Positions 2,318 through 12,912 of a DNA stretch of 64,000 nt are shown piece by piece. The stretch's first letter is position 1. Each line of letters opens with the position of its first letter. Source of the DNA: Gemmatimonadota bacterium (GTDB lineage: Bacteria > Gemmatimonadota > Gemmatimonadetes > Gemmatimonadales > GWC2-71-9); the NCBI GenBank assembly GCA_003221895.1, contig QHUJ01000120.1, positions 1-64,000 of the forward strand, in the 5' to 3' direction. The notes beneath the pieces are model-generated. The model did no database searches and was not told the DNA's origin. It was given only the letters and a program-made list of their open reading frames with translations. The position numbers were made by a program, and so were the translations under genes.

Positions 2318-3268
2318 ATGGTTCTGAGAGAATCTGCAACAACCGGCGCGCTGCGCCGCGGCAGCTGGTGGTTACGAGCGCTCCAGGCCGTCGTACTGGT
2401 CGGCGCCGCGTATTATCTCATCACCAAACAGATCACGCCCCACTGGCCCGACATCCGCGCGCGGCAGTTCGCCTGGCGGGCCGGCCCGCTGGTGCTCGGC
2501 TCGGTGATCGTCCTGGGCACATTGACGGTGCTCGTCGGCGCCTGGACCGCCAGCCTGCGCTGGTGCGCCGCGCAGATCACCGCACTCGATGCGGCGAAAG
2601 TCTGGTTCACCGCAAACCTCGCGCGCTTTCTGCCCGGTGGCGTCTGGCAGTTCGCGAGCCTCGCCCTGATGGCGTCGCGCTACGGCGTGAGCACGGCAGC
2701 GGCGACGGCGACCGTGCTGCTCGAGCAGATCGTTTTGCTCATCACCGGCCTCGCGGTCGTCGCCGTGTTCACCCCCGCGGTGCTGCACGCTGCCTGGTGG
2801 CAGGGAGCCCTGGTCGTCGCGATCATCCTGGGCATCGTCATCCTGGCGCTGCCACGGCCCGGAGGACGACTGGGCCGCTGGCTGGAGCGCTATGTGCCAA
2901 GCCTCAAACAGGTCTGGTCGCAGCTCGGCGCGCGCCACCTGCTGCTGTTTATCGTGATTCTCATCGTCCCGTGGTTGATGTACGGCACCGCCTTCCGCCT
3001 GCTCGCTATCGGACTGCTGGGCAGCGTCGCAGGATCGTGGGGCTTCTACATCGCGGCATTTACGGGGAGCTACCTTGCCGGCGTCATTGCTGTGTTTGCT
3101 CCCGCCGGGTTGTTCGTGCGCGAAGCAGCGCTCATTGGCGTCCTGTCGCCGGTCATTGGGGGCGGTGACGCCGCGATTCTCGCGGTGGCGTCGCGCATCT
3201 GGTTGACGGCGCTTGAAATCGTCGCGGGCATCACCGTGCTCGCGCTGCCGAGCACCCCGAGCGCGTGA
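2318..3268 (+). CDS. Flippase-like / lysylphosphatidylglycerol synthase-type integral membrane protein (UPF0104)
   Basis: A 316-residue polytopic membrane protein with about eight hydrophobic segments, the first near residues 19-36. It resembles the LPG_synthase_TM/UPF0104 family (AglD and MprF flippase-domain relatives), which often sits beside surface-glycan glycosyltransferases and is proposed to move or modify lipid-linked intermediates. It opens a + strand set of four genes joined by overlaps. Its stop overlaps the GTG start of the next gene by four bases (GTGA). The AGGA directly before ATG 2318 is close for a ribosome site, so the start is moderately secure. The exact role is inferred from family and context. 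Confidence 0.7.
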   Translation: MVLRESATTGALRRGSWWLRALQAVVLVGAAYYLITKQITPHWPDIRARQFAWRAGPLVLGSVIVLGTLTVLVGAWTASLRWCAAQITALDAAKVWFTANLARFLPGGVWQFASLALMASRYGVSTAAATATVLLEQIVLLITGLAVVAVFTPAVLHAAWWQGALVVAIILGIVILALPRPGGRLGRWLERYVPSLKQVWSQLGARHLLLFIVILIVPWLMYGTAFRLLAIGLLGSVAGSWGFYIAAFTGSYLAGVIAVFAPAGLFVREAALIGVLSPVIGGGDAAILAVASRIWLTALEIVAGITVLALPSTPSA

Positions 3269-5640
3269 CGGCTCCTGCGCAGTCTGCGCTCGTCGAGTAC
3301 ATGCCGCGGCGGCCGAATTGGGTCGCGCTGGGCATCCTCTCGCTGTTCATTGTGATCCTGTCCTTGCCGATGCTCTCGGGGAAGTGGCTCGCATCGCCGC
3401 ACGGCGATCAGTATTCGAGTGCATACGCCTTCTATTCCTGGGAGGCGACGGAGTGGCGCGCGACGGGCAGCATTCCGCTGTGGAACCCGATGATCATGGG
3501 CGGCCTGCCGTTCCTCGCCGTGGTCACGCACGGCGACATCCTGTATCCGACGGCGCTGCTGCGGTACTTCCTGCCGGTTCATGTCGTCATGAACCTGGCG
3601 TTTTTCCTCCACTACATTCTCGCCGGCTTCCTGACGTACCTGTTCCTGCGGCGTATGGCGGTGTCGTGGACAGGCGCCGTGACGGGCGGGATCGCCTACC
3701 AGTTGTCCGGCATCATGATCTCGTACGTGCAGCCGGGGCACGACGGCAAGCTATTCGTCTCGACGTTACTGCCCCTAGCATTCCTGGCGCTCGTTGTGGC
3801 GCTGCGCGACCGGCGTTTCTGGGGCTATCCGCTGCTCGCGGTCGCCGTCGCGCTGTGCCTGCTGAGCCCGCACGTACAGGCGACGTACTACCTGCTCATC
3901 GCCGCGGCGTTATTCGCGCTCTATCTGACGTTCGGGGAAGTGACGACCGAGCCATCGCGGCCGCGGCTCGCGCGATTGGCGCTGGCGTTCGCCGCAATTG
4001 TCGCTGGCTTCGGCATGGGGATGCCGCAGATTCTTCCATTCCTCCAGTACATCCCCCACTCACCACGCGCCGCCGGGTATTCGGTCGGTTACTCAGGGTC
4101 AACGTCGTTCGGCGTGCCGTGGGATCATGTGCCCGAATTCTTCATTGCAAGCTTCGTCGGCCATATGGAGTCGTACTGGGGCTCAAATCCGCTCAAGCTC
4201 CACTCCGAGTATCTCGGTCTCCCCGTCATCGCGCTAGCCATTCTGGGCTTCGGCGACCGGCGACGCCGGCTCGTATGGTGGATGGGGGGGATCGGCCTGC
4301 TGTTCCTCCTGATCGCGCTGGGTGGTGCCACGCCGTTCTACCATCTCTGGTGGACCGTGATGCCGATGGTCAAAAAGACCCGCGCACCGGGGATGGTGTT
4401 CTTCGTGGTCGCCTTCTGCGTCGCGATGTTCGCCGCATTCGGTGTGACGCGGTTCGAACGCGGGGAAGGGGGATGGCGTCATATCCGCGTCTGGCTCATC
4501 GCAGCCGGCGTCGTTGCGCTGTTCGGCGCGATCGGGGTGTTCGGCCAGCTCGCCGTGTCTCTCGCGCCCGCCGGGCGCGTCGGTGCGGCCATAGCGCACG
4601 GCGCAGACATCCGGCTGTCGGCCGTCATCGGGGCGGTCCTCCTTGCAGCAGTAGCGCTCCTCGTGTGGGCGCGCTTGCAGGGCCGGGTGCCCGCATTGGC
4701 GTTCGCGCTCGGCCTGCCGTTGCTCGTCGGAACGGATCTGTGGCGCGATGGTCGCCATTTCTGGACCTACTCGCTGCCGCCGGCTGCAGACCTCTACCGC
4801 ACGGACGAAGTGATTGCGCGCCTCACACAGGCGCCGAAGCCGCTGCGCGTTCTCGACCTAGGACCGTTCACGCAGAATGAGGCCGTCTATCCCCAAAACG
4901 TGCTCATGGCGCACGGCATTGCGCAGGTCATTGGGTACCAGGGAAACGAGCTCCGCTATTACGATGACCTGCTGGGGGGCCGCAACGAGTGGCGCTACCT
5001 GCTCTCATCCACGCGCCTGTGGCAGCTCCTCGCGGTGCGCTACGTGTTGATCCCGGACAGCGCCGCACTACCGGGCTACCACATCGTGATGGGTCCGGTG
5101 GTTACGGCTGCCGGCACGCGGGCATTTGTGTACGAGGCCGACACGATTCCGCCGTACGCCCGTGTCGTCCCAGCGGCGCTGAAGGTCGATAACGATTCCG
5201 CGATTCCACCGACCCTCGCCGATCCGCGCCTGCCGGGGTTCGACCAGGTTGTCTTGCTCCCGAAGGATGCGCCGCTCAGCCCACCGCCGCTGCGAGGTCT
5301 GCCGCCTCCATCCGCGTCGCGCGCTCGCGTTACGGCCTGGGATGCGGGGCAGATGACTGTCGAGCTCGACCCGGCACCGCGCGACTCGAGCTACGTGATG
5401 ATCGCCGAGAACTGGTATCTCGACTGGCGCGCCAGCGTGGACGGCCAGGCGGCGCGCGTCCTGCGCGGCGACCATGCGCTGCTCACGATTCCGGTCGCGC
5501 CCGGCGCGCGCAAGATCGAGCTGCGTTATCACTCGAGCGCCTACGCGCAGGGAAAGGTGATCGCCTTCGCGACACTCGTCATCGTGCTGGCGGGATTTGT
5601 CGTTCCGCCGCTCGTCGCTCGGAGACGCCGCAGTGCCTGA
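3265..5640 (+). CDS. YfhO-type large integral membrane protein (putative GT-C glycosyltransferase)
   Basis: A 791-residue protein with roughly a dozen transmembrane segments in the first 490 residues and a soluble C-terminal domain, ending in one more hydrophobic segment near residues 760-780 and a basic tail. This is the layout of bacterial YfhO-like proteins, which are related to GT-C glycosyltransferases using lipid-phosphate sugars. Early acidic residues in an extracellular loop (PHGDQYSSAYAFYSWEATEW, about residues 44-63) fit a GT-C active-site loop. The start is GTG at 3265, overlapping the upstream stop as GTGA. The following gene encodes a polyprenyl-phosphate-sugar synthase, which would supply its donor; this pairing supports the GT-C reading. 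Confidence 0.75.
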   Translation: MTAPAQSALVEYMPRRPNWVALGILSLFIVILSLPMLSGKWLASPHGDQYSSAYAFYSWEATEWRATGSIPLWNPMIMGGLPFLAVVTHGDILYPTALLRYFLPVHVVMNLAFFLHYILAGFLTYLFLRRMAVSWTGAVTGGIAYQLSGIMISYVQPGHDGKLFVSTLLPLAFLALVVALRDRRFWGYPLLAVAVALCLLSPHVQATYYLLIAAALFALYLTFGEVTTEPSRPRLARLALAFAAIVAGFGMGMPQILPFLQYIPHSPRAAGYSVGYSGSTSFGVPWDHVPEFFIASFVGHMESYWGSNPLKLHSEYLGLPVIALAILGFGDRRRRLVWWMGGIGLLFLLIALGGATPFYHLWWTVMPMVKKTRAPGMVFFVVAFCVAMFAAFGVTRFERGEGGWRHIRVWLIAAGVVALFGAIGVFGQLAVSLAPAGRVGAAIAHGADIRLSAVIGAVLLAAVALLVWARLQGRVPALAFALGLPLLVGTDLWRDGRHFWTYSLPPAADLYRTDEVIARLTQAPKPLRVLDLGPFTQNEAVYPQNVLMAHGIAQVIGYQGNELRYYDDLLGGRNEWRYLLSSTRLWQLLAVRYVLIPDSAALPGYHIVMGPVVTAAGTRAFVYEADTIPPYARVVPAALKVDNDSAIPPTLADPRLPGFDQVVLLPKDAPLSPPPLRGLPPPSASRARVTAWDAGQMTVELDPAPRDSSYVMIAENWYLDWRASVDGQAARVLRGDHALLTIPVAPGARKIELRYHSSAYAQGKVIAFATLVIVLAGFVVPPLVARRRRSA

Positions 5641-6355
5641 GAAAGCCCTCGTCGTCATTCCCACCTACAACGAGGCGGTGAACCTTCCTCAGCTCGTTCC
5701 GCAGGTCCTGGCGCAGGATCCGCGCATCGACGTGCTGGTGGTCGATGATAACTCACCCGACGGCACGGGCGCGCTGGCGGACGAGATGAGCCGCGCCAAT
5801 CCGCGCGTGCACACGCTCCATCGTGAAGGCAAGCTCGGGCTCGGCACCGCCTACATCACCGGCTTCAAGTGGGCGCTCGAGCGGTCGTACGACTTCATGT
5901 TCGAGATGGATGCCGACTTCTCCCACGATCCGGTCCACCTGCCGCAGTTTCTCACGGCCATCCGGGACGCCGATGTGGTGCTTGGGTCACGCTACCTGCA
6001 GGGGAGGGTGACGGTCGTCAATTGGCCGATGAGCCGCCTCATGCTATCGTATCTGGCCAACATTTACGCGCGCTGGTTCACGGGGCTCAAGATTTGGGAC
6101 CTGACCGGTGGCTTCAAGTGCTTTCGCAGGCGCGTGCTCGAAACCATTGATCTGTCCCAGGTGGTCTCCAACGGGTATGCCTTTCAAATCGAGATGAGCG
6201 TCCGCGCATGGCGAAAAGGGTTCAAGCTGCGGGAAATACCCATCGTGTTCGTCGATCGGACCGAGGGACAAAGCAAGATGAATCGAGCGATCGTCCGGGA
6301 GGCCGTGTTGAAGGTGCCGCGGCTCCGCCTTATGGCCTGGTTCGGCCGCATTTGA
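5633..6355 (+). CDS. Polyprenyl-phosphate mannose synthase-like GT2 (DPM1 family)
   Basis: A 240-residue GT2 enzyme. It has VVIPTYNEAVNLPQLV at the N-terminus, the nucleotide-binding LVVDDNSPDGTG near residue 32 and the metal-binding EMDADFSHDP near residue 90. The GSRYLQG and LTGGFKCFRR motifs follow, as in dolichol/polyprenol-phosphate mannose synthases. No C-terminal membrane domain is present, so it is the soluble single-domain form. It would transfer a hexose from GDP- or UDP-sugar to a polyprenyl phosphate. GTG at 5633 is preferred: GGAG at 5621-5624 sits 8 bases upstream and the codon lies just before the stop of the YfhO-like gene. An in-frame TTG at 5597 would enlarge the overlap. 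Confidence 0.85.
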   Translation: MPEKALVVIPTYNEAVNLPQLVPQVLAQDPRIDVLVVDDNSPDGTGALADEMSRANPRVHTLHREGKLGLGTAYITGFKWALERSYDFMFEMDADFSHDPVHLPQFLTAIRDADVVLGSRYLQGRVTVVNWPMSRLMLSYLANIYARWFTGLKIWDLTGGFKCFRRRVLETIDLSQVVSNGYAFQIEMSVRAWRKGFKLREIPIVFVDRTEGQSKMNRAIVREAVLKVPRLRLMAWFGRI

Positions 6356-7185
6356 TCGGGCTGCCGGTCTACAAGATGACGGGATCGGGAAACGATTTCG
6401 TCATGCTGGACGCCCGGGTCTCCTCGCCGGCCGACTGGAGCCCTCAGGACATGCAGGTGGTGTGCGCCCGCGGCACCGGAATCGGCGCCGACGGTGTGGT
6501 GTTCGTGGGTCCGGGGAGCAAGGCGGGCGCCGCCCGCATGATCTATTACAACGCCGACGGCTCCCACGCCGCCATGTGCGGCAATGCCGCCCTCTGTAGC
6601 ACCACGCTGGCCGCGCGCCTCGGGATCGCGCCAGCCGGCGGAATGGATCTGGAAACCGACGCCGGCACCTACCGCAGCCGGACGAGCGACCGAGGGCGCG
6701 CCGAGCTGCATCTGGCCCCGGTGGACCCACCTGAAGCCCTGGCTGGACTGGGGATCATTGATGGAGAGCGCCGGGCCGCGCTCGGTCGTGTAGGTGTGCC
6801 GCATCTCATCATTCTGGTCGACGATGTCGACCACGTAGCCTTGATGGAGCGCGGTCGCGCACTGCGGTTCGATCCGGCGCTCGCACCGGACGGCGCCAAC
6901 ATCAATTTCATATCGGCGGACGGTCCGGCGCGCGACGGCAAACCGGTCTGGCGGATGCGGACCTATGAGCGCGGCGTCGAGGGCGAAACACTGGCGTGTG
7001 GCACCGGCGCTGTGGCCGCGGGATGCGCGATAGAGGAATGGGGGCTCGGACGGCTACCGATCGAGATTCAGAGCCGCAGCGGCCGCCTGTTGACGATCCG
7101 CGGCACCAAGGGCTCAAACGGGCGCTACGACGACGTCTGGCTGGCTGGAGAGGGGAGAATGGTGTTCAGGGGCGTGATTACATGA
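6352..7185 (+). CDS. dapF: Diaminopimelate epimerase
   Basis: A 277-residue protein that interconverts LL- and meso-diaminopimelate in the lysine and peptidoglycan pathway. It carries the family start KMTGSGNDFVMLD and both catalytic cysteines: one in NADGSHAAMCGNAALC, one in GETLACGTGAVAAG. TTG at 6352 is the likely start because it overlaps the stop of the upstream gene and places the first motif eight residues in, as in known DapF proteins; the next ATG at 6376 would remove the first strand. It is the last + strand gene before the dif-like site. No terminator is seen between it and the convergent TPR gene. Confidence 0.95.
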   Translation: MIGLPVYKMTGSGNDFVMLDARVSSPADWSPQDMQVVCARGTGIGADGVVFVGPGSKAGAARMIYYNADGSHAAMCGNAALCSTTLAARLGIAPAGGMDLETDAGTYRSRTSDRGRAELHLAPVDPPEALAGLGIIDGERRAALGRVGVPHLIILVDDVDHVALMERGRALRFDPALAPDGANINFISADGPARDGKPVWRMRTYERGVEGETLACGTGAVAAGCAIEEWGLGRLPIEIQSRSGRLLTIRGTKGSNGRYDDVWLAGEGRMVFRGVIT

Positions 7186-7214
7186 ACTGCTTGTCCACAT
7201 TTGTTGACTCCGCT

Positions 7215-7242
7215 ACTTAACATAACTCCTATTATACGAAGT
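7215..7242 (-). other. Candidate chromosomal dif site (XerC/XerD recombination site)
   Basis: Read on the - strand the site is an 11-bp XerC-side arm ACTTCGTATAA (7242-7232), a 6-bp centre TAGGAG, and an 11-bp XerD-side arm TTATGTTAAGT (7225-7215). The XerD arm matches the E. coli dif arm (TTATGTTAAAT) at 10 of 11 positions. The XerC arm matches the proteobacterial consensus RNTKCGCATAA at 10 of 11. The two arms are partly palindromic (8 of 11). It is an AT-rich patch in a GC-rich genome, placed in the 63-bp gap between convergent dapF and a TPR gene, exactly where gene orientation flips for the whole window. By-eye GGGNAGGG octamers at 590, 673, 4463 and 6001 on + and ten on - to the right all point toward it. 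XerC, XerD and FtsK are not in the window. Confidence 0.85.
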
Positions 7243-7248
7243 TGATTG

Positions 7249-7959
7249 CTATGAAGCCGCGCCTTTTGTGAGCTCCGCCAAGCGCACTTTCGCTTCGGTC
7301 ACCGCCCCTTCCTTGGGCAAATCTTTCACAATGTGCTGGTAGGCGGCGATCGCCTTGGCTGTGTCTCCGGCAGCCACCCAGGCCCGACCAGCGTCCGAAA
7401 GCATTTGCGCCTTGAGGAAATCGAGCCGCGCGGCACTCGAGCCCGTCTCATAGGCCTCTCCGGCGTCCTTAAAACGGCCCAGGTTCTCGTAGGCGGCCCC
7501 GAGGAGACCGTAGGCTTGTGCCCTATAGGCTTTGCCCGCCCCGGGCGCGTAATCGCGCAGGACGTCGATTGCCTGCGGCGGCTGACCCTGCAGCAGCCGG
7601 ACGTTGGCGAGCAATAGCCGACCTTCCTGGGCCGCATTGGTTCCCGAGTAGTTCTCGACAATCCTGGCGAGTTCGCTCGCGGCCAGCGGCAGATTCTGGC
7701 TCTCGAAGGCAAACCGCGCGCCCTGGAGCTCGCGGCCGGCGATTTCTTCGGAACGGCGCTTGGTCGATTGCGTCCAGAGGAACAGCCCTGCGGCGATGAT
7801 GATGATCGCGGCGATCCAGGTCGAAAGCGTACGATGGGCCACGATCCAGGCGTTAAAGCGATCCGACAATGGCTCCTTGGACGCGACCGGCCTGTCTGTC
7901 CCTGTTGCCTGTGGTGTTTTCACGCTACCCGTGCTGCGTGTCGCAGTTGAACTCGCCAT
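7249..7959 (-). CDS. Membrane-anchored TPR protein (YfgM/Tetratricopeptide_21-like)
   Basis: A 236-residue protein. About 45 polar N-terminal residues are followed by one membrane segment (AAIIIIAAGLFLWTQ, near 49-63) and a TPR-like helical region to the C-terminus, for example LPLAASELARIVENYSG and PPQAIDVLRDYAPGAG. This is the layout of YfgM-like proteins, which assist the Sec translocon and periplasmic chaperones in gamma-proteobacteria. AGGA six bases before ATG 7959 is a good ribosome site. It is the first - strand gene after the dif-like site and converges on dapF. The role is inferred from architecture only. Confidence 0.7.
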   Translation of the reverse strand: MASSTATRSTGSVKTPQATGTDRPVASKEPLSDRFNAWIVAHRTLSTWIAAIIIIAAGLFLWTQSTKRRSEEIAGRELQGARFAFESQNLPLAASELARIVENYSGTNAAQEGRLLLANVRLLQGQPPQAIDVLRDYAPGAGKAYRAQAYGLLGAAYENLGRFKDAGEAYETGSSAARLDFLKAQMLSDAGRAWVAAGDTAKAIAAYQHIVKDLPKEGAVTEAKVRLAELTKGAAS

Positions 7960-8093: not shown

Positions 8094-8606
8094 TTAGGAG
8101 TAATGCAGCAAGGCCTCCACGCGTTGTCCCTGGAGGCGTTGACGCCCGTTCAGAAAATCGAGCTCGATGAGAAAACTGAAGCCCACTACCGGCGCAGCCT
8201 TGGCGCCCACCAGCCGCGCGGCCGCAGTGGCCGTCCCGCCGGTCGCGAGCACATCGTCCACGATCAGCACCCGGTCCCCTGTCTGGATGGCGTCGTGGTG
8301 CATTTCCAGGGCGTCCGTGCCGTACTCGAGTGCGTACTCGACCCGCTGCGTGGCCGCGGGCAGCTTGCCGGGCTTCCGAATCGGGACGAGCCCCGCCCCG
8401 AGGGCCAGCGCGATCGGCGCGCCGAACAGAAAGCCGCGGGACTCGATCGACACGACGCGCGAGATCCGCGCATCGCGGTATGGACTCGCCATCAGCTCGA
8501 CCGCCTGCCCGAACAGCTTGGCGTCGAGCAGCACGGGCGTGACATCCTTGAACACGATTCCCGGCTTGGGAAAATCTTTCACGTCGCGGATCGCGCGACC
8601 CAACAT
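8094..8606 (-). CDS. apt: Adenine phosphoribosyltransferase
   Basis: About 170 residues. It salvages adenine with PRPP to AMP. The PRPP-binding signature VLIVDDVLATGGTA is intact, and the N-terminus has the family motif DFPKPGIVFKDVTP. ATG 8606 gives the usual length but has no clear ribosome site. An in-frame TTG at 8636 has GAGG close upstream and would overlap the end of acyP by 14 bp; longer ATG starts at 8651 and 8654 also exist. It follows acyP in the same direction, with tRNA-Arg just downstream. Confidence 0.92.
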   Translation of the reverse strand: MLGRAIRDVKDFPKPGIVFKDVTPVLLDAKLFGQAVELMASPYRDARISRVVSIESRGFLFGAPIALALGAGLVPIRKPGKLPAATQRVEYALEYGTDALEMHHDAIQTGDRVLIVDDVLATGGTATAAARLVGAKAAPVVGFSFLIELDFLNGRQRLQGQRVEALLHYS

Positions 8607-8622
8607 ATCAACGACTTTCGAT

Positions 8623-8895
8623 TTATCGGATGTCAAAGGACCTCGGTACATCAAGTTCTAGTGGAACTTGAAGGCGCTGTACGTCGTCCACACGCGCGTG
8701 CGACGAGCCTCGCCGCAGCGATGTCTCCAACTTGTCGAGCTGGGCATCGGGTCCTTCAGAAACCACTTCAACCGAGCCATCGGGAAGGTTGCACGCGAAC
8801 CCGCCTAGCTTCAGCCGCTCGGCTTCACGCATGACAAACCACCTGAACCCGACTCCTTGAACGCGACCCCGGATAATCCAGCGGCGCAGGCTCAA
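8623..8895 (-). CDS. acyP: Acylphosphatase
   Basis: A 90-residue small enzyme hydrolysing acyl phosphates. It has the catalytic-loop signature GRVQGVGFRWFV (Arg in the phosphate loop) and the strand LGGFACNLPDGSVEVVSEGP (active-site Asn in the N-L-P-D-G turn). The start is TTG at 8895, read because it forms a TTGA overlap with the native end of dedA (TGA 8894-8892) and follows a GGAGG-rich stretch about 10 bases upstream. It was therefore translationally coupled to dedA, whose body is now rearranged, and its ribosome site lies inside the left 48-bp inverted repeat. Confidence 0.9.
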   Translation of the reverse strand: MSLRRWIIRGRVQGVGFRWFVMREAERLKLGGFACNLPDGSVEVVSEGPDAQLDKLETSLRRGSSHARVDDVQRLQVPLELDVPRSFDIR

Positions 8896-8896
8896 A

Positions 8897-8944
8897 CTGG
8901 CGAACTCCCTCCTCCTGCACCGCGACGCCGCCGCATGACATACA
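8897..8944 (+). repeat. Left arm of 48-bp perfect inverted repeat flanking the flipped dedA segment
   Basis: It is the exact reverse complement of 9197-9244 over all 48 bp. On the - strand this arm encodes the native DedA C-terminus (VYVMRRRRGAGGGSSP) and contains the ribosome site of acyP, so this copy is in its original place. The first ten bases (CTGGCGAACT) also occur where the N-terminal half of dedA ends, which suggests they were the short homology that started the rearrangement. Confidence 0.95.
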
Positions 8945-9196
8945 TCAGCACGCTCATCGGGCGGCTGTTTCCGGTGATCCGGCATCTCATCTCGATCCCC
9001 GCGGGCCTGCATGGCATGCCACTCCCGAAGTTCATCCTGTATACCGCGGTTGGCGCGGGGTTGTGGTGCGCGATTCTCACGTGGATCGGATACTTCCTGG
9101 GACAGCACGAGGGTGTGTTGCGCAGCGAGGATCTCCACCGTTACGTCACCTGGGCGATCACGGTGTTGATTCCGCTCAGTATCATCACGGTGATCG
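8945..9196 (+). other. Inverted 252-bp inner segment carrying the dedA C-terminal coding region
   Basis: On the + strand this segment encodes the DedA C-terminal block beginning STLIGRLFPVIRHLIS and ending ITVI, while the rest of the gene and all neighbours are on the - strand. It sits between the two 48-bp inverted repeats like the loop of a foldback. A 132-residue + strand frame (8857-9255) runs through it but is a by-product of the inversion and not a new gene. No recombinase gene is nearby. Confidence 0.85.
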
Positions 9197-9244
9197 TGTA
9201 TGTCATGCGGCGGCGTCGCGGTGCAGGAGGAGGGAGTTCGCCAG
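9197..9244 (-). repeat. Right arm of 48-bp perfect inverted repeat
   Basis: It is the exact reverse complement of 8897-8944. Read on the - strand it follows GSIIGA of the dedA N-terminal half and introduces the residues LANSLLLHRDAAA and a stop, which are foreign to DedA after LAN. This copy is therefore the derived one: an inverted duplicate of the gene's own 3' end placed in the middle of the gene. Confidence 0.95.
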
Positions 9245-9443
9245 CGCGCCGATGATGCTGCCAATGACCCCGCTGAGCAGCGCCAGCGCGAAACTCATCT
9301 CGCCTTTCGCGGCCCAGTACCCTGCCGGCGGCATGACCAGCTCGCTCGGGACCGGCAGGATGGACGATTCCATGGCCATCAGCGCGACGATCCCCGGATA
9401 GCCGACCGCGAGGAGGGTCTGCAGTAGCCAATCGATGAATCCC

Positions 9444-10097
9444 TTAAGCATCGAAGCCGTGCTCGCCGACGAGCGGTACGAAACGGGCCGCGCCGATCGG
9501 AGTGGCGCTGACGCCGCCCTCTGTCCGGCGCACGAGCGTGAGTGTCTGTGCCCCCTTTGCTCCCAGCGGAATGATCATCCTGCCGCTCGGGGCCAGCTGC
9601 TCGACGAGCGGCGGCGGGATCTCCGGGCCACCCGCCGCCACGAGGATGGCGTGGTAGGGAGCATATGCGCTCCATCCCAACGTGCCATCGCCGATGAGCA
9701 GTGAGACGTTCGTCACGCCCGCGGCTTTCAGCGCGGCCTGCGCGGTCTCCGCCAGAACGCGCACCCGTTCGATCGTGAAGACCTGCGAAGCAAGAGCGCC
9801 GAGGAGCGCAGTCTGATAGCCCGAGCCCGTCCCGACCTCGAGCACGCGTTCAGTCCCCTGCAGGGCAAGCGTCTCGAGATATCGGGCCTGCGTAAAGGGC
9901 TGGGAGATGGTCTGTCCTCTGCCGATTGGCAGTGACGAATCTTCATACGCGCGGTGGCGCACACCTTCGGGGACGAAGAGGTGACGAGGCGTCTCGGCGA
10001 ACGCGCGCAACACGGCGAGGTCGCGGATACCTTGCGCGCGCAGCTGTTCCACCAGTCGCGCGCGATACCCGCCGTAGGTGTCGCGGCTGCCAGTCAC
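9444..10097 (-). CDS. pcm: Protein-L-isoaspartate O-methyltransferase
   Basis: A 217-residue repair enzyme that methylates isoaspartyl residues in damaged proteins. It has the family N-terminal block RHLFVPEGVRHRAYEDSSLPIGRGQTISQP and the SAM-binding motif VLEVGTGSGYQTALL, both in normal positions. The start is GTG 10097, overlapping the surE stop as GTGA. The surE-pcm order is the common bacterial pairing. Its 3' end overlaps the dedA start by 8 bp. Confidence 0.95.
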   Translation of the reverse strand: MTGSRDTYGGYRARLVEQLRAQGIRDLAVLRAFAETPRHLFVPEGVRHRAYEDSSLPIGRGQTISQPFTQARYLETLALQGTERVLEVGTGSGYQTALLGALASQVFTIERVRVLAETAQAALKAAGVTNVSLLIGDGTLGWSAYAPYHAILVAAGGPEIPPPLVEQLAPSGRMIIPLGAKGAQTLTLVRRTEGGVSATPIGAARFVPLVGEHGFDA

Positions 10098-10906
10098 CTA
10101 CCCAGGTCCCACTGCTTCACGACTTCGATGAGCTTGTAGTTCGTCAAATCGACATGGAGCGGCGTTACCGAGATGTAGCCATCTCGCACGGCCTGGAAAT
10201 CGGAATCAGCGTCCCCGGACCACGTGACCCGCCCTCCCCCGATCCAGTAGACCTCACGGCCCCACGGATCCTTCATCGTGGCGATTTCCTCATGAAATAC
10301 GCGGCTGCCCAGATGCGTCACCTTCACGCCTTTGACGTGGTCGGCCGGAATCGGCGGCAGGTTGATGTTGAGCAGCGTCTCGCCGGGGAAATTCTCGACG
10401 CGCACGATGCGCTGCACGAGACGCTCGAGACCCTTGCGATGACTCTCGAGGTGCTCGAGGTCGAAGCTCCCGTACGAGATCGCGACACTGGGAATGCCCG
10501 CGGCAAGACCCTCCATCGCCGCGGACACGGTGCCGGAGTACAGCACGTCCTCGCCCATGTTGGGACCGTGATTGACGCCGGAAAACACCCAGTTGGGCCC
10601 GTCGGGCATGAGGGCACCCAGACCGAGCAGCACGCAATCGGTAGGCGTTCCGTCCACCTGAAAGGCGCCGTCAGAGCGGCGGTGCGCCCGCAGCGGGCGA
10701 TGCAGTGTCAGTGAGTGGGACGTCCCGCTCTGTTCGCGGTCCGGTGCGACGACGGTGACCTGCCCAACGGTCGCGCAGACATCGGCCAGGAGCGCGATCC
10801 CGGGCGCCAATACGCCATCGTCATTGGAGACGAGAATGCGCAGGCCTTCCCCTTCGCGCATGGGAGGAATCGGGGGTGGTACCGCATCGGCAGTGGGATT
10901 GCTCAC
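10094..10906 (-). CDS. surE: 5'/3'-nucleotidase SurE
   Basis: About 270 residues; a metal-dependent phosphatase of nucleoside monophosphates linked to stationary-phase survival. The metal-site start ILVSNDDGVLAPGI is intact, followed by VVAPDREQSGTSHSLT and SGVNHGPNMGEDVLYSGTV. GTG 10906 is favoured because it forms a GTGA overlap with the upstream stop, the junction type used all along this strand. ATG 10861 would trim a proline-rich leader of 15 residues and gives a start nearer the conserved core. An ATG at 10945 is also open. Confidence 0.94.
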   Translation of the reverse strand: MSNPTADAVPPPIPPMREGEGLRILVSNDDGVLAPGIALLADVCATVGQVTVVAPDREQSGTSHSLTLHRPLRAHRRSDGAFQVDGTPTDCVLLGLGALMPDGPNWVFSGVNHGPNMGEDVLYSGTVSAAMEGLAAGIPSVAISYGSFDLEHLESHRKGLERLVQRIVRVENFPGETLLNINLPPIPADHVKGVKVTHLGSRVFHEEIATMKDPWGREVYWIGGGRVTWSGDADSDFQAVRDGYISVTPLHVDLTNYKLIEVVKQWDLGR

Positions 10907-11550
10907 CGGCGCAGCTGCTTCGCGAACGCGCGCGCCATGCGCCACGTGTCGCTCCAGGCGCGGAAATGACTGCGTGCGGCCCCGCCGTAGATCGTGGGCA
11001 CCTCTACCGACGTCACCCGAAAGCCCGCGCGCAGCGCATCGAGCAGGAAATTTGCCTCGTATTCATAGCGGTTCCCAGCCGGCTGCACCTGCTCGGCGAC
11101 TTCCCGCGTGAACGCCCGAAACCCGGTCTGCGCGTCGGGGACGCTCTGGCCGCCGATGCGTGTCGCCAGGCTCGCGGAGAGCCAGTTCGTGAAGCGGCGT
11201 GACACCGGCATTCCACCGTTTCGCTGGCGCGCGCCGAGGACGATGTCGGCCTGTGTTTCGGCAATCGGACGTATCAGCCGCGGAATCTCCTCGGGGGGAT
11301 GCTGGCCGTCGGCATCCAACGTGACAATGATCGCTGCACCTGACCGGATAGCCTCCCTGATGCCATCGCGGAGTGCAGCGCCCTTACCAAGGTTCTGCTT
11401 GTGAGCGAGCACCGTTTCCGCGACCGCCGAGTATGAGCCGTCGCTCGAGCCATCGTTCACGACGACGATCCTGGCCCCCGGTAGCGCAGCGCGCGCTCGA
11501 GCCACCACGCCGTCGATCGTGCCGGCAGCCTGGAACGCCGGAATTACCAC
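10903..11550 (-). CDS. GT2-family glycosyltransferase (short, DPM/WcaA-like)
   Basis: About 215 residues. It begins in the first strand of a GT-A fold (VIPAFQAAGTIDGVV), with the donor motif IVVVNDGSSDGS near residue 28, the metal-binding LDADGQHPPEEIPRL near residue 78 and GFRAFTREVAEQ later. It looks like a polyprenyl-phosphate hexose transferase or related GT2 without a membrane domain. GTG 11550 is the first canonical start. A CTG at 11562 would add the rest of the first strand and has GGGAG five bases upstream, so the true start may be non-canonical. It follows merR by 13 bp. Confidence 0.8.
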   Translation of the reverse strand: MVIPAFQAAGTIDGVVARARAALPGARIVVVNDGSSDGSYSAVAETVLAHKQNLGKGAALRDGIREAIRSGAAIIVTLDADGQHPPEEIPRLIRPIAETQADIVLGARQRNGGMPVSRRFTNWLSASLATRIGGQSVPDAQTGFRAFTREVAEQVQPAGNRYEYEANFLLDALRAGFRVTSVEVPTIYGGAARSHFRAWSDTWRMARAFAKQLRR

Positions 11551-11563
11551 GACGACCTGCAGG

Positions 11564-11923
11564 CTAGCTCCCTTCGAGGATGCCGAGCACCGACTTCAGC
11601 TCGGTGCGAAGCTCTTTGACCGTTTCGGTCGCGAGGGCGCGACGCGCTTCCGGCTTGAGCTCGCCCGAGCGGCGGTACTGCTCGATCTTCTGCCGGGCGC
11701 CTTCGATCGTGTACTTCTCCGTGTAGAGCAGATGCTTCACGAGCATGATCAGCTCGATCTCGCGCCGCTGATAGACGCGATTACCGGAGCGGTTCTTTGC
11801 CGGATTCAAGAAACGGAACTGGCTTTCCCAATACCGCAGGACGTGTGGCTTGAGATCGGTGAGCTGGCAAACCTCACCGATCGAGAAGAACTCCTGGACG
11901 GGTTGCGAGGGCGTGCCGCTCAT
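11564..11923 (-). CDS. MerR-family transcriptional regulator
   Basis: A 119-residue DNA-binding protein. The winged-helix MerR start is clear: FFSIGEVCQLTDLKPHVLRY, then WESQFRFLNPAKNRSGNRVY and RREIELIMLVKHLLYTEKYT, followed by a short dimerisation helix. There is no C-terminal effector domain and no cysteine pair for metals, so it is the minimal MerR type often found near gpsA/plsY in several phyla. The target is unknown. It overlaps gpsA as ATGA. Confidence 0.88.
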   Translation of the reverse strand: MSGTPSQPVQEFFSIGEVCQLTDLKPHVLRYWESQFRFLNPAKNRSGNRVYQRREIELIMLVKHLLYTEKYTIEGARQKIEQYRRSGELKPEARRALATETVKELRTELKSVLGILEGS

Positions 11924-12912
11924 TCGGCCTTCAGCTCGCGTTCCATGAGATCGGCGATCGCCTGCCGCGCGGGCTTGTTCTCGAACAGGATGTTGGCGAC
12001 CTCGCGCGCGATGGGCAACTCGACGCCTTCCCGCTCGCCCAGCGCCACGGCCGTGCGCGTGGTGTTCACGCCCTCGACCACAGCCGCTTTCCCGGCGAGG
12101 GCTTGTTCCAGAGTCTTTCCCTGCCCCAGCGCGACACCCAGCGTCCGGTTGCGCGACAGGGCGCCGGTCGCGGTGAGGATCAGGTCGCCCATCCCCGCGA
12201 GCCCCGCGAACGTCATCGGCTGTGCCCCGAGAGCCACGCCCAGGCGCGTGATCTCCGCGAGGCCGCGGGTGATCAGCGCCGCGCGCGCATTGAAGCCGAG
12301 CCCCAGGCCTTCCAGGATGCCGGCGGCAACGGCGATCACGTTCTTGAGCGCGCCGCCCAGCTCCACGCCGACGACGTCGGTGGAGGAGTAGACCCGGAAG
12401 TAGCTCGTGGAGAAGACCCGCTGAGCCCGCTGCGCGACCGAGTGGTCGGCAGCGGCGGCCACGACGGCGGTCGGCTGACGCTGAAACACTTCCAGGGCGA
12501 ACGACGGCCCCGAGAGCACCGCGACGGGAATCCCCTTCGGCAGCACCTCACCGAGGACGCGCGACGGCCGCTCCAGCCGGTCTGGGTCGAGGCCCTTGGA
12601 CGCGCTGATCACCAGGGGCTTCGTGCCCTTCAGCGCTGCTCCCGCTTGCTGCATCACGGGCCGAACGGCATGGGACGGCGCGGCCGACACGACGACCTCC
12701 ACGCCGGCTACGCTCGTTGCCAGATCACGCTCCGCACGCAACGCAGGCGCCAAGGACGCGTTGGGAAGAAACATCTCGTTCACGTGACGCCGGTTCACGC
12801 TTTCGATGACTTCGGGCTCCCGCGCCCAGAGCGTCACGTCCTCGCCCTTGCGCGCGAGCAGATCGGCGAGGGCTGTGCCCCAGGCGCCGCCACCCACCAC
12901 TGCGATCTTCAT
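11920..12912 (-). CDS. gpsA: Glycerol-3-phosphate dehydrogenase [NAD(P)+]
   Basis: A 330-residue cytoplasmic enzyme making sn-glycerol-3-phosphate for phospholipids. The dinucleotide motif VVGGGAWGTALADLLARKGE opens the protein. The substrate-domain motifs SASKGLD, VLSGPSFA and ELGGALKNVIAVAAGILEGLGLGFNARAALITRG are complete. The start ATG 12912 is abutted by a perfect hairpin (12913-12936) where a ribosome site would normally be. It lies downstream of plsY, the acyltransferase that uses its product. Confidence 0.96.
   Translation of the reverse strand: MKIAVVGGGAWGTALADLLARKGEDVTLWAREPEVIESVNRRHVNEMFLPNASLAPALRAERDLATSVAGVEVVVSAAPSHAVRPVMQQAGAALKGTKPLVISASKGLDPDRLERPSRVLGEVLPKGIPVAVLSGPSFALEVFQRQPTAVVAAAADHSVAQRAQRVFSTSYFRVYSSTDVVGVELGGALKNVIAVAAGILEGLGLGFNARAALITRGLAEITRLGVALGAQPMTFAGLAGMGDLILTATGALSRNRTLGVALGQGKTLEQALAGKAAVVEGVNTTRTAVALGEREGVELPIAREVANILFENKPARQAIADLMERELKAE

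Follow-up and report, generated by a model that had tools for sequence, protein, structure and literature searches.

A chromosomal dif site with a putative accessory element on its XerD side in a Gemmatimonadota bacterium

The 64,000-nucleotide stretch of DNA analysed here (the window) contains a 28-bp sequence that, with a probability of roughly 0.93, is the chromosomal dif of this Gemmatimonadota bacterium and lies in a functional unit longer than 28 bp, which includes a putative element for an accessory protein. The 28-mer had been read in a preliminary description as the XerC/XerD site at which sister chromosomes still joined when replication ends are separated and, judged from its sequence, this is what it is. 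The sequence, coordinates and strand given there (ACTTCGTATAA-TAGGAG-TTATGTTAAGT on the minus strand) are exact. That description did not contain the conserved second element beside dif. The features to which the text refers are the following:

7215-7242, minus strand: dif core site, formed by the XerC arm ACTTCGTATAA (7232-7242), the centre TAGGAG (7226-7231) and the XerD arm TTATGTTAAGT (7215-7225).
7191-7199, minus strand: dif-associated element TGTGGACAA (TTGTCCACA on the plus strand), DnaA-box-like, 15 bp past the XerD arm, intergenic, 5 bp after the dapF stop.
7201-7209, minus strand: place of the upstream copy of the tandem pair (offset +5), which is degenerate in the window (AGTCAACAA).
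6208-7185, plus strand: dapF (diaminopimelate epimerase; Pfam PF01678, NCBIfam TIGR00652), left side of the convergent junction.
7249-7959, minus strand: gene for a TPR protein, right side of the convergent junction, adjoining dif in many relatives across the class.
8094-12912, minus strand: phosphoribosyltransferase, acylphosphatase, pcm and gpsA genes, a conserved ter-proximal neighbourhood.
2318-5640, plus strand: genes for LPG-synthase-TM-like and YfhO-like membrane proteins, the conserved neighbourhood on the other side of dif.

The site shares with the E. coli dif/XerCD-FtsK-KOPS system the following properties: (i) a 28-bp sequence in an 11-6-11 layout; (ii) one copy per chromosome; (iii) genes for both XerC and XerD; and (iv) an FtsK with a gamma domain, together with KOPS words (GGGNAGGG) that converge on the site. 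Its position at the terminus, where the skew switches, was judged in relatives. The XerD arm agrees with that of E. coli (TTATGTTAAAT) at 10 of 11 positions, as had been claimed, and the XerC arm agrees with its E. coli counterpart (GGTGCGCATAA) at only 7 of 11. Both 11-bp arms are partly palindromic around the 6-bp centre, and their inner halves, TATAA and TTATGT, are invariant in a set of 28 sequences. When up to three mismatches are allowed, the 28-mer is found once in the window (none of 100 shuffles gives a match) and once in the whole assembly (3.71 Mb, 250 contigs). The genome-wide search with a dif profile which had been proposed as a check, here with a profile built from 28 related sites and E<=10, returned the site at 7215-7242 and no second or better match in the organism's own genome.

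This dif was traced across more than 200 Gemmatimonadota genomes and it is kept in close and distant relatives alike, so that the loss of the motif in close relatives, named beforehand as grounds for abandoning the reading, was not observed. The dif pattern is present in all 9 other sampled species of the genus and in most of the family; a profile search found it, nearly always as a single copy, in 143 of the 151 genomes of the order. An alignment of the intergenic region next to dapF, also suggested earlier, gave a mean column identity of 96% for dif against 59% for the 60 bp upstream in the genus set (11 sequences, one of them from another genus of the family). The gene order gpsA, pcm, acylphosphatase, phosphoribosyltransferase, TPR gene, dif, dapF, yfhO and LPG-synthase-like gene is whole or partial in nearly all members of the order that were examined, and a TPR gene adjoins dif in several other families of the class. 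Two side observations concern the locus in individual assemblies. Some of them (G104, G141, G038, G130, G134 and G270) hold two copies of dif, of which one or both often lie close to the end of a contig, and the two dif flanks of G104 score differently; such double copies are possibly due to integrative elements at dif, strain mixtures or breaks in the assembly graph. In four other genomes (G036, G055, G113 and G082), dif is separated from one of the genes that usually adjoin it by 3-8 kb of large ORFs, with dif and the remaining neighbourhood in place.

In the window, dif lies inside a 63-bp convergent gap between dapF on the plus strand and the TPR gene on the minus strand, which bears out the orientation flip noticed in the preliminary description. 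The DapF relatives at 73-78% identity come from Gemmatimonadetes metagenome assemblies, which places the organism in the Gemmatimonadota. The genes left of dif are mostly on the plus strand, as described, with one minus-strand glycosyltransferase gene among them. To the right, the assignment of the genes to the minus strand also holds: those genes that were tested pairwise carry Pfam domains, the plus-strand ORFs overlapping them carry none, and both tRNAs are on the minus strand. Plus-strand coding starts again about 77 kb into the contig. The flip at dif is the one expected at a terminus, because gene orientation and GC skew switch together at the ter of Gemmatimonadota: Tomasch et al. (2024; PMC11237797) described a 600-kb region with a strong gene-strand bias that switches at ter. 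The joint switch of orientation and skew is common to that study and the present one. The two differ in that ter was placed there from a prediction of the origin and from skew, and in that dif comes up a single time in its main text, as a general remark, with no mention of XerC, FtsK or KOPS.

The enzymes that would act on the site are encoded in the same genome. XerD scores above its NCBIfam cut-off; XerC scores 333.9 against an equivalog cut-off of 335.15 (1.3 bits below), with XerC as its best match and a trmFO-xerC-hslV neighbourhood; and FtsK has alpha, motor and gamma domains, the last of these matching PF09397 at 1.7e-25. The KOPS word GGGNAGGG points toward dif far more often than away from it: 18:2 on the own contig, where it ranks second among 56 composition-matched words; 46:14 in the sampled closed relative G043, where it ranks first among such words; and 78:8 over distances of up to 10 kb from dif in 18 relatives. 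Since composition-matched control words run at 1946:907 against 78:8 for KOPS, the excess toward dif is not due to GC skew alone.

Only 7 kb of the window lie left of dif, too short for skew, and the own assembly is too fragmented to place dif on the chromosome directly; the evidence on position comes from relatives. In G043 (closed, 4.64 Mb), where dif is at 1.93 Mb, every sampled segment between 230 kb and dif has a positive skew and every one after it a negative skew, the values going from +0.089 at 1.88 Mb to -0.030 at 1.96 Mb; the absence of a skew change, which had been set out as evidence against a terminus, is thus not what this relative displays. In six closed or near-closed relatives, dif and dnaA are separated by 0.42-0.49 of the chromosome. 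The exception is G029, a closed relative from family f1 (a single contig of 5.51 Mb), in which dif and the element are intact but lie at 0.26 of the chromosome from dnaA, with neither skew polarity nor KOPS polarity around dif. GC skew was set aside as proof in G029: it is noisy, dominated by gene orientation and has no switch at dif. This genome may be rearranged or misassembled.

By analogy with E. coli, XerC would bind ACTTCGTATAA and XerD would bind TTATGTTAAGT, and septal FtsK would follow the KOPS words that point at dif from both replichores. On contact with XerD, the gamma domain of FtsK would trigger recombination between two copies of dif, by which a chromosome dimer would be turned into monomers. 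What is read from the DNA itself comprises the site with its single copy, conservation and setting, the enzyme genes and the KOPS polarity; Xer binding, strand exchange and FtsK activation are carried over from E. coli. In this lineage, the functional unit would extend beyond 28 bp to an oriented TGTGGANAA element, often a 10-bp tandem pair, located 15-16 bp past the XerD arm, and this element probably binds an accessory protein.

The second element is TGTGGANAA (TTNTCCACA on the other strand). Of the 63 distinct dif flanks, 60 contain it at +15/+16, a match of at least 7 of 8 positions being required; in shuffled flanks, the mean number with it at that place is 0.05 and the maximum 2. The distance is exactly +15 in the genus (9/9), in family f1 (37/38) and in family f3 (4/4), and mostly +16 in family f2. 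A tandem copy in the same orientation, 10 bp nearer to dif, can be recognised in about one third of the f1 sites and in most f2 sites. Aligned flanks have no comparable conservation on the XerC side of dif. The word itself is rare, with about one occurrence per 75-105 kb in the sampled stretches and 27 in the own genome, and TTGTCCACA at 7191-7199 is the sole copy of the element word on the 90.5-kb contig. Once the element is added to the profile (54 positions), the score of the own site goes from 28.8 to 44.8 bits, and this longer profile gives full or near-full length matches across the order and in families f4 and f6 of the class, each of which has the element at +15/+16 in 3 of 3 loci.

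The element belongs to dif and not to dapF, because its place is kept where dapF is up to 4 kb away. An artefact of conserved coding at the 3' end of dapF was considered and rejected: the element is outside dapF in the window, and its phase is kept in relatives. Nor is it a general feature of dif, an idea that was discarded since the flank of E. coli dif has no comparable element and 14 loci from families f5, f7 and f10 have dif without it (0/14). The presence of TGTGGANAA at +15/+16 on the XerD side sets the dif of this Gemmatimonadota clade apart from that of E. coli. The fixed spacing, the fixed orientation and the restriction to one side of dif lead us to infer that a protein bound to the element works with XerCD or FtsK.

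As to the nature of this protein, DnaA is the leading but unproven candidate, because, of the known sites, the DnaA box of GC-rich bacteria, TT(G/C)TCCACA (PMC4285127), matches the element best. It is possible, though short of an even chance, that the element is a true DnaA box, in which case DnaA or a DnaA complex beside dif would link the state of initiation to dimer resolution, or the terminus would be a DnaA-binding locus. The consensus TTNTCCACA equals the GC-rich box, and the dominant words, TTCTCCACA (19 flanks) and TTGTCCACA (17), make up 36 of the 63; the window copy TTGTCCACA fits the 9-mer TT(A/G/C)TCCACA and is identical to a listed high-affinity DnaA box of M. tuberculosis and S. 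coelicolor (PMC4285127). The element has a mean of 1.6 mismatches to TTATCCACA, a value equalled by 0.04% of column permutations, its tandem 10-bp copies share their orientation, and the same lineages have a TTWTCCACA box in their dnaA promoter (TTGACTTTTCCACA). But that promoter has a single TTWTCCACA box, in the form TTTTCCACA or TTATCCACA and not in the G/C form, and neither a cluster of TTNTCCACA nor any other multi-box cluster was seen near dnaA in the genomes searched. Known DnaA boxes cluster at oriC, whereas the dif-associated element lies near the terminus, its distance from dif being fixed. Furthermore, the literature searched yielded no report of a dif-coupled DnaA box or of any other conserved element beside dif. 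The fuller proposal, put forward as a doubtful one, is that dif is composite in this clade: with a DnaA box, single or in tandem, at constant spacing from the XerD arm, the initiator would bind next to the site and couple initiation control to dimer resolution or to terminus segregation.

Alternatively, and again only tentatively, the element may be the target of a different DNA-binding accessory protein, which would shape the Xer synaptic complex or gate it in the way ArgR and PepA do at plasmid cer. Fixed spacing and orientation, presence on the XerD side only and restriction to certain lineages agree with such a role, as does the E. coli dif flank, where there is nothing comparable; the motif, however, already equals a known box and no candidate protein was identified. 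The plasmid Xer sites cer and psi, with ArgR, ArcA and PepA, resemble the present arrangement in that a core site has a neighbouring sequence bound by accessory proteins, the binding being putative here. They differ in scale and location: the accessory sequences of cer are about 180 bp long and plasmid-borne (PMC5357621), and the Gemmatimonadota element takes up 9-19 bp at a chromosomal dif.

It is unlikely that the element represents extra, degenerate Xer half-sites that would recruit more recombinase subunits. When scored against the XerC-arm profile it does beat 99.5% of its own column permutations, but its absolute score is -4.8 bits against 18.9 for a real arm, and its 10-bp period differs from the 11+6+11 layout. 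An FtsK loading site beside dif, that is, a KOPS variant, is very improbable: the element does lie on the side of XerD, on which FtsK gamma acts in E. coli, but GTGGANAA has no polarity between the replichores (12/12 and 12/16), and TGTGGANAA is rare while GGGNAGGG is polar. The element was accordingly rejected as KOPS, being neither frequent nor polar toward dif. That the 28-mer itself is an attachment site of a phage or mobile element, or a chance palindrome, is hardly credible: integrative elements exploiting Xer use dif, and a few assemblies have two copies, some of them at contig ends, but the site is single in nearly all genomes, order-wide synteny and conservation contradict such an origin, there is no integrase among the identified flanking genes, and viral contigs gave no match to the composite site of dif and element.

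The reading of the 28-mer as dif is correct and, as originally stated, largely ordinary for a specialist. The terminus, presented at the time as rare and directly readable, is less rare than claimed. Kono et al. (2011; PMC3025954) predicted dif in the sole Gemmatimonadetes genome of their set; phylum and kind of site are thus the same, with the difference that no flanking element is mentioned in the portion of that paper drawn on here. Because this prediction and the strand switch of Tomasch et al. (2024) precede it, the present dif call with its strand switch adds one more case to what was known. As far as the literature searched shows, the composite architecture of dif in the clade looks new. 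In practical terms, dif provides a terminus marker that requires sequence only. It is useful for fragmented metagenome assemblies of Gemmatimonadota, in which the GC skew may be faint and governed mainly by gene orientation. The conserved element, for its part, suggests that in some lineages chromosomal dif exceeds the 28 bp of the textbooks and has a protein partner of its own; were this partner DnaA, the initiator and the terminus would be linked at one site.

Some minor observations concern DnaA and its boxes elsewhere in these genomes. In the dnaA promoters (loci L135-L139 and L230-L236), a conserved TTGACTTTTCCACA or TTGACTTATCCACA contains a DnaA-like box overlapping a -35-like element, and the place of this box upstream of dnaA suggests autoregulation. 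Most of the 14 genomes checked encode a DnaA-like protein in which the Bac_DnaA ATPase domain occurs twice in tandem, for instance at L182:5061-7019 (G029), where the gene is followed by another whose product apparently contains TPR, and at G000:C234:10554-12137 in the own genome. This paralogue was rejected as the binder of the element, as no DNA-binding domain was recognised by eye in the G029 translation. Finally, an inverted pair, TTATCCACA ... TGTGGAAAA, occurs at two places in the own genome, G000:C174:197-234 and G000:C249:20597-20634, with a spacing of 29 bp at both; it is possibly a repeat or a DnaA-regulated site.
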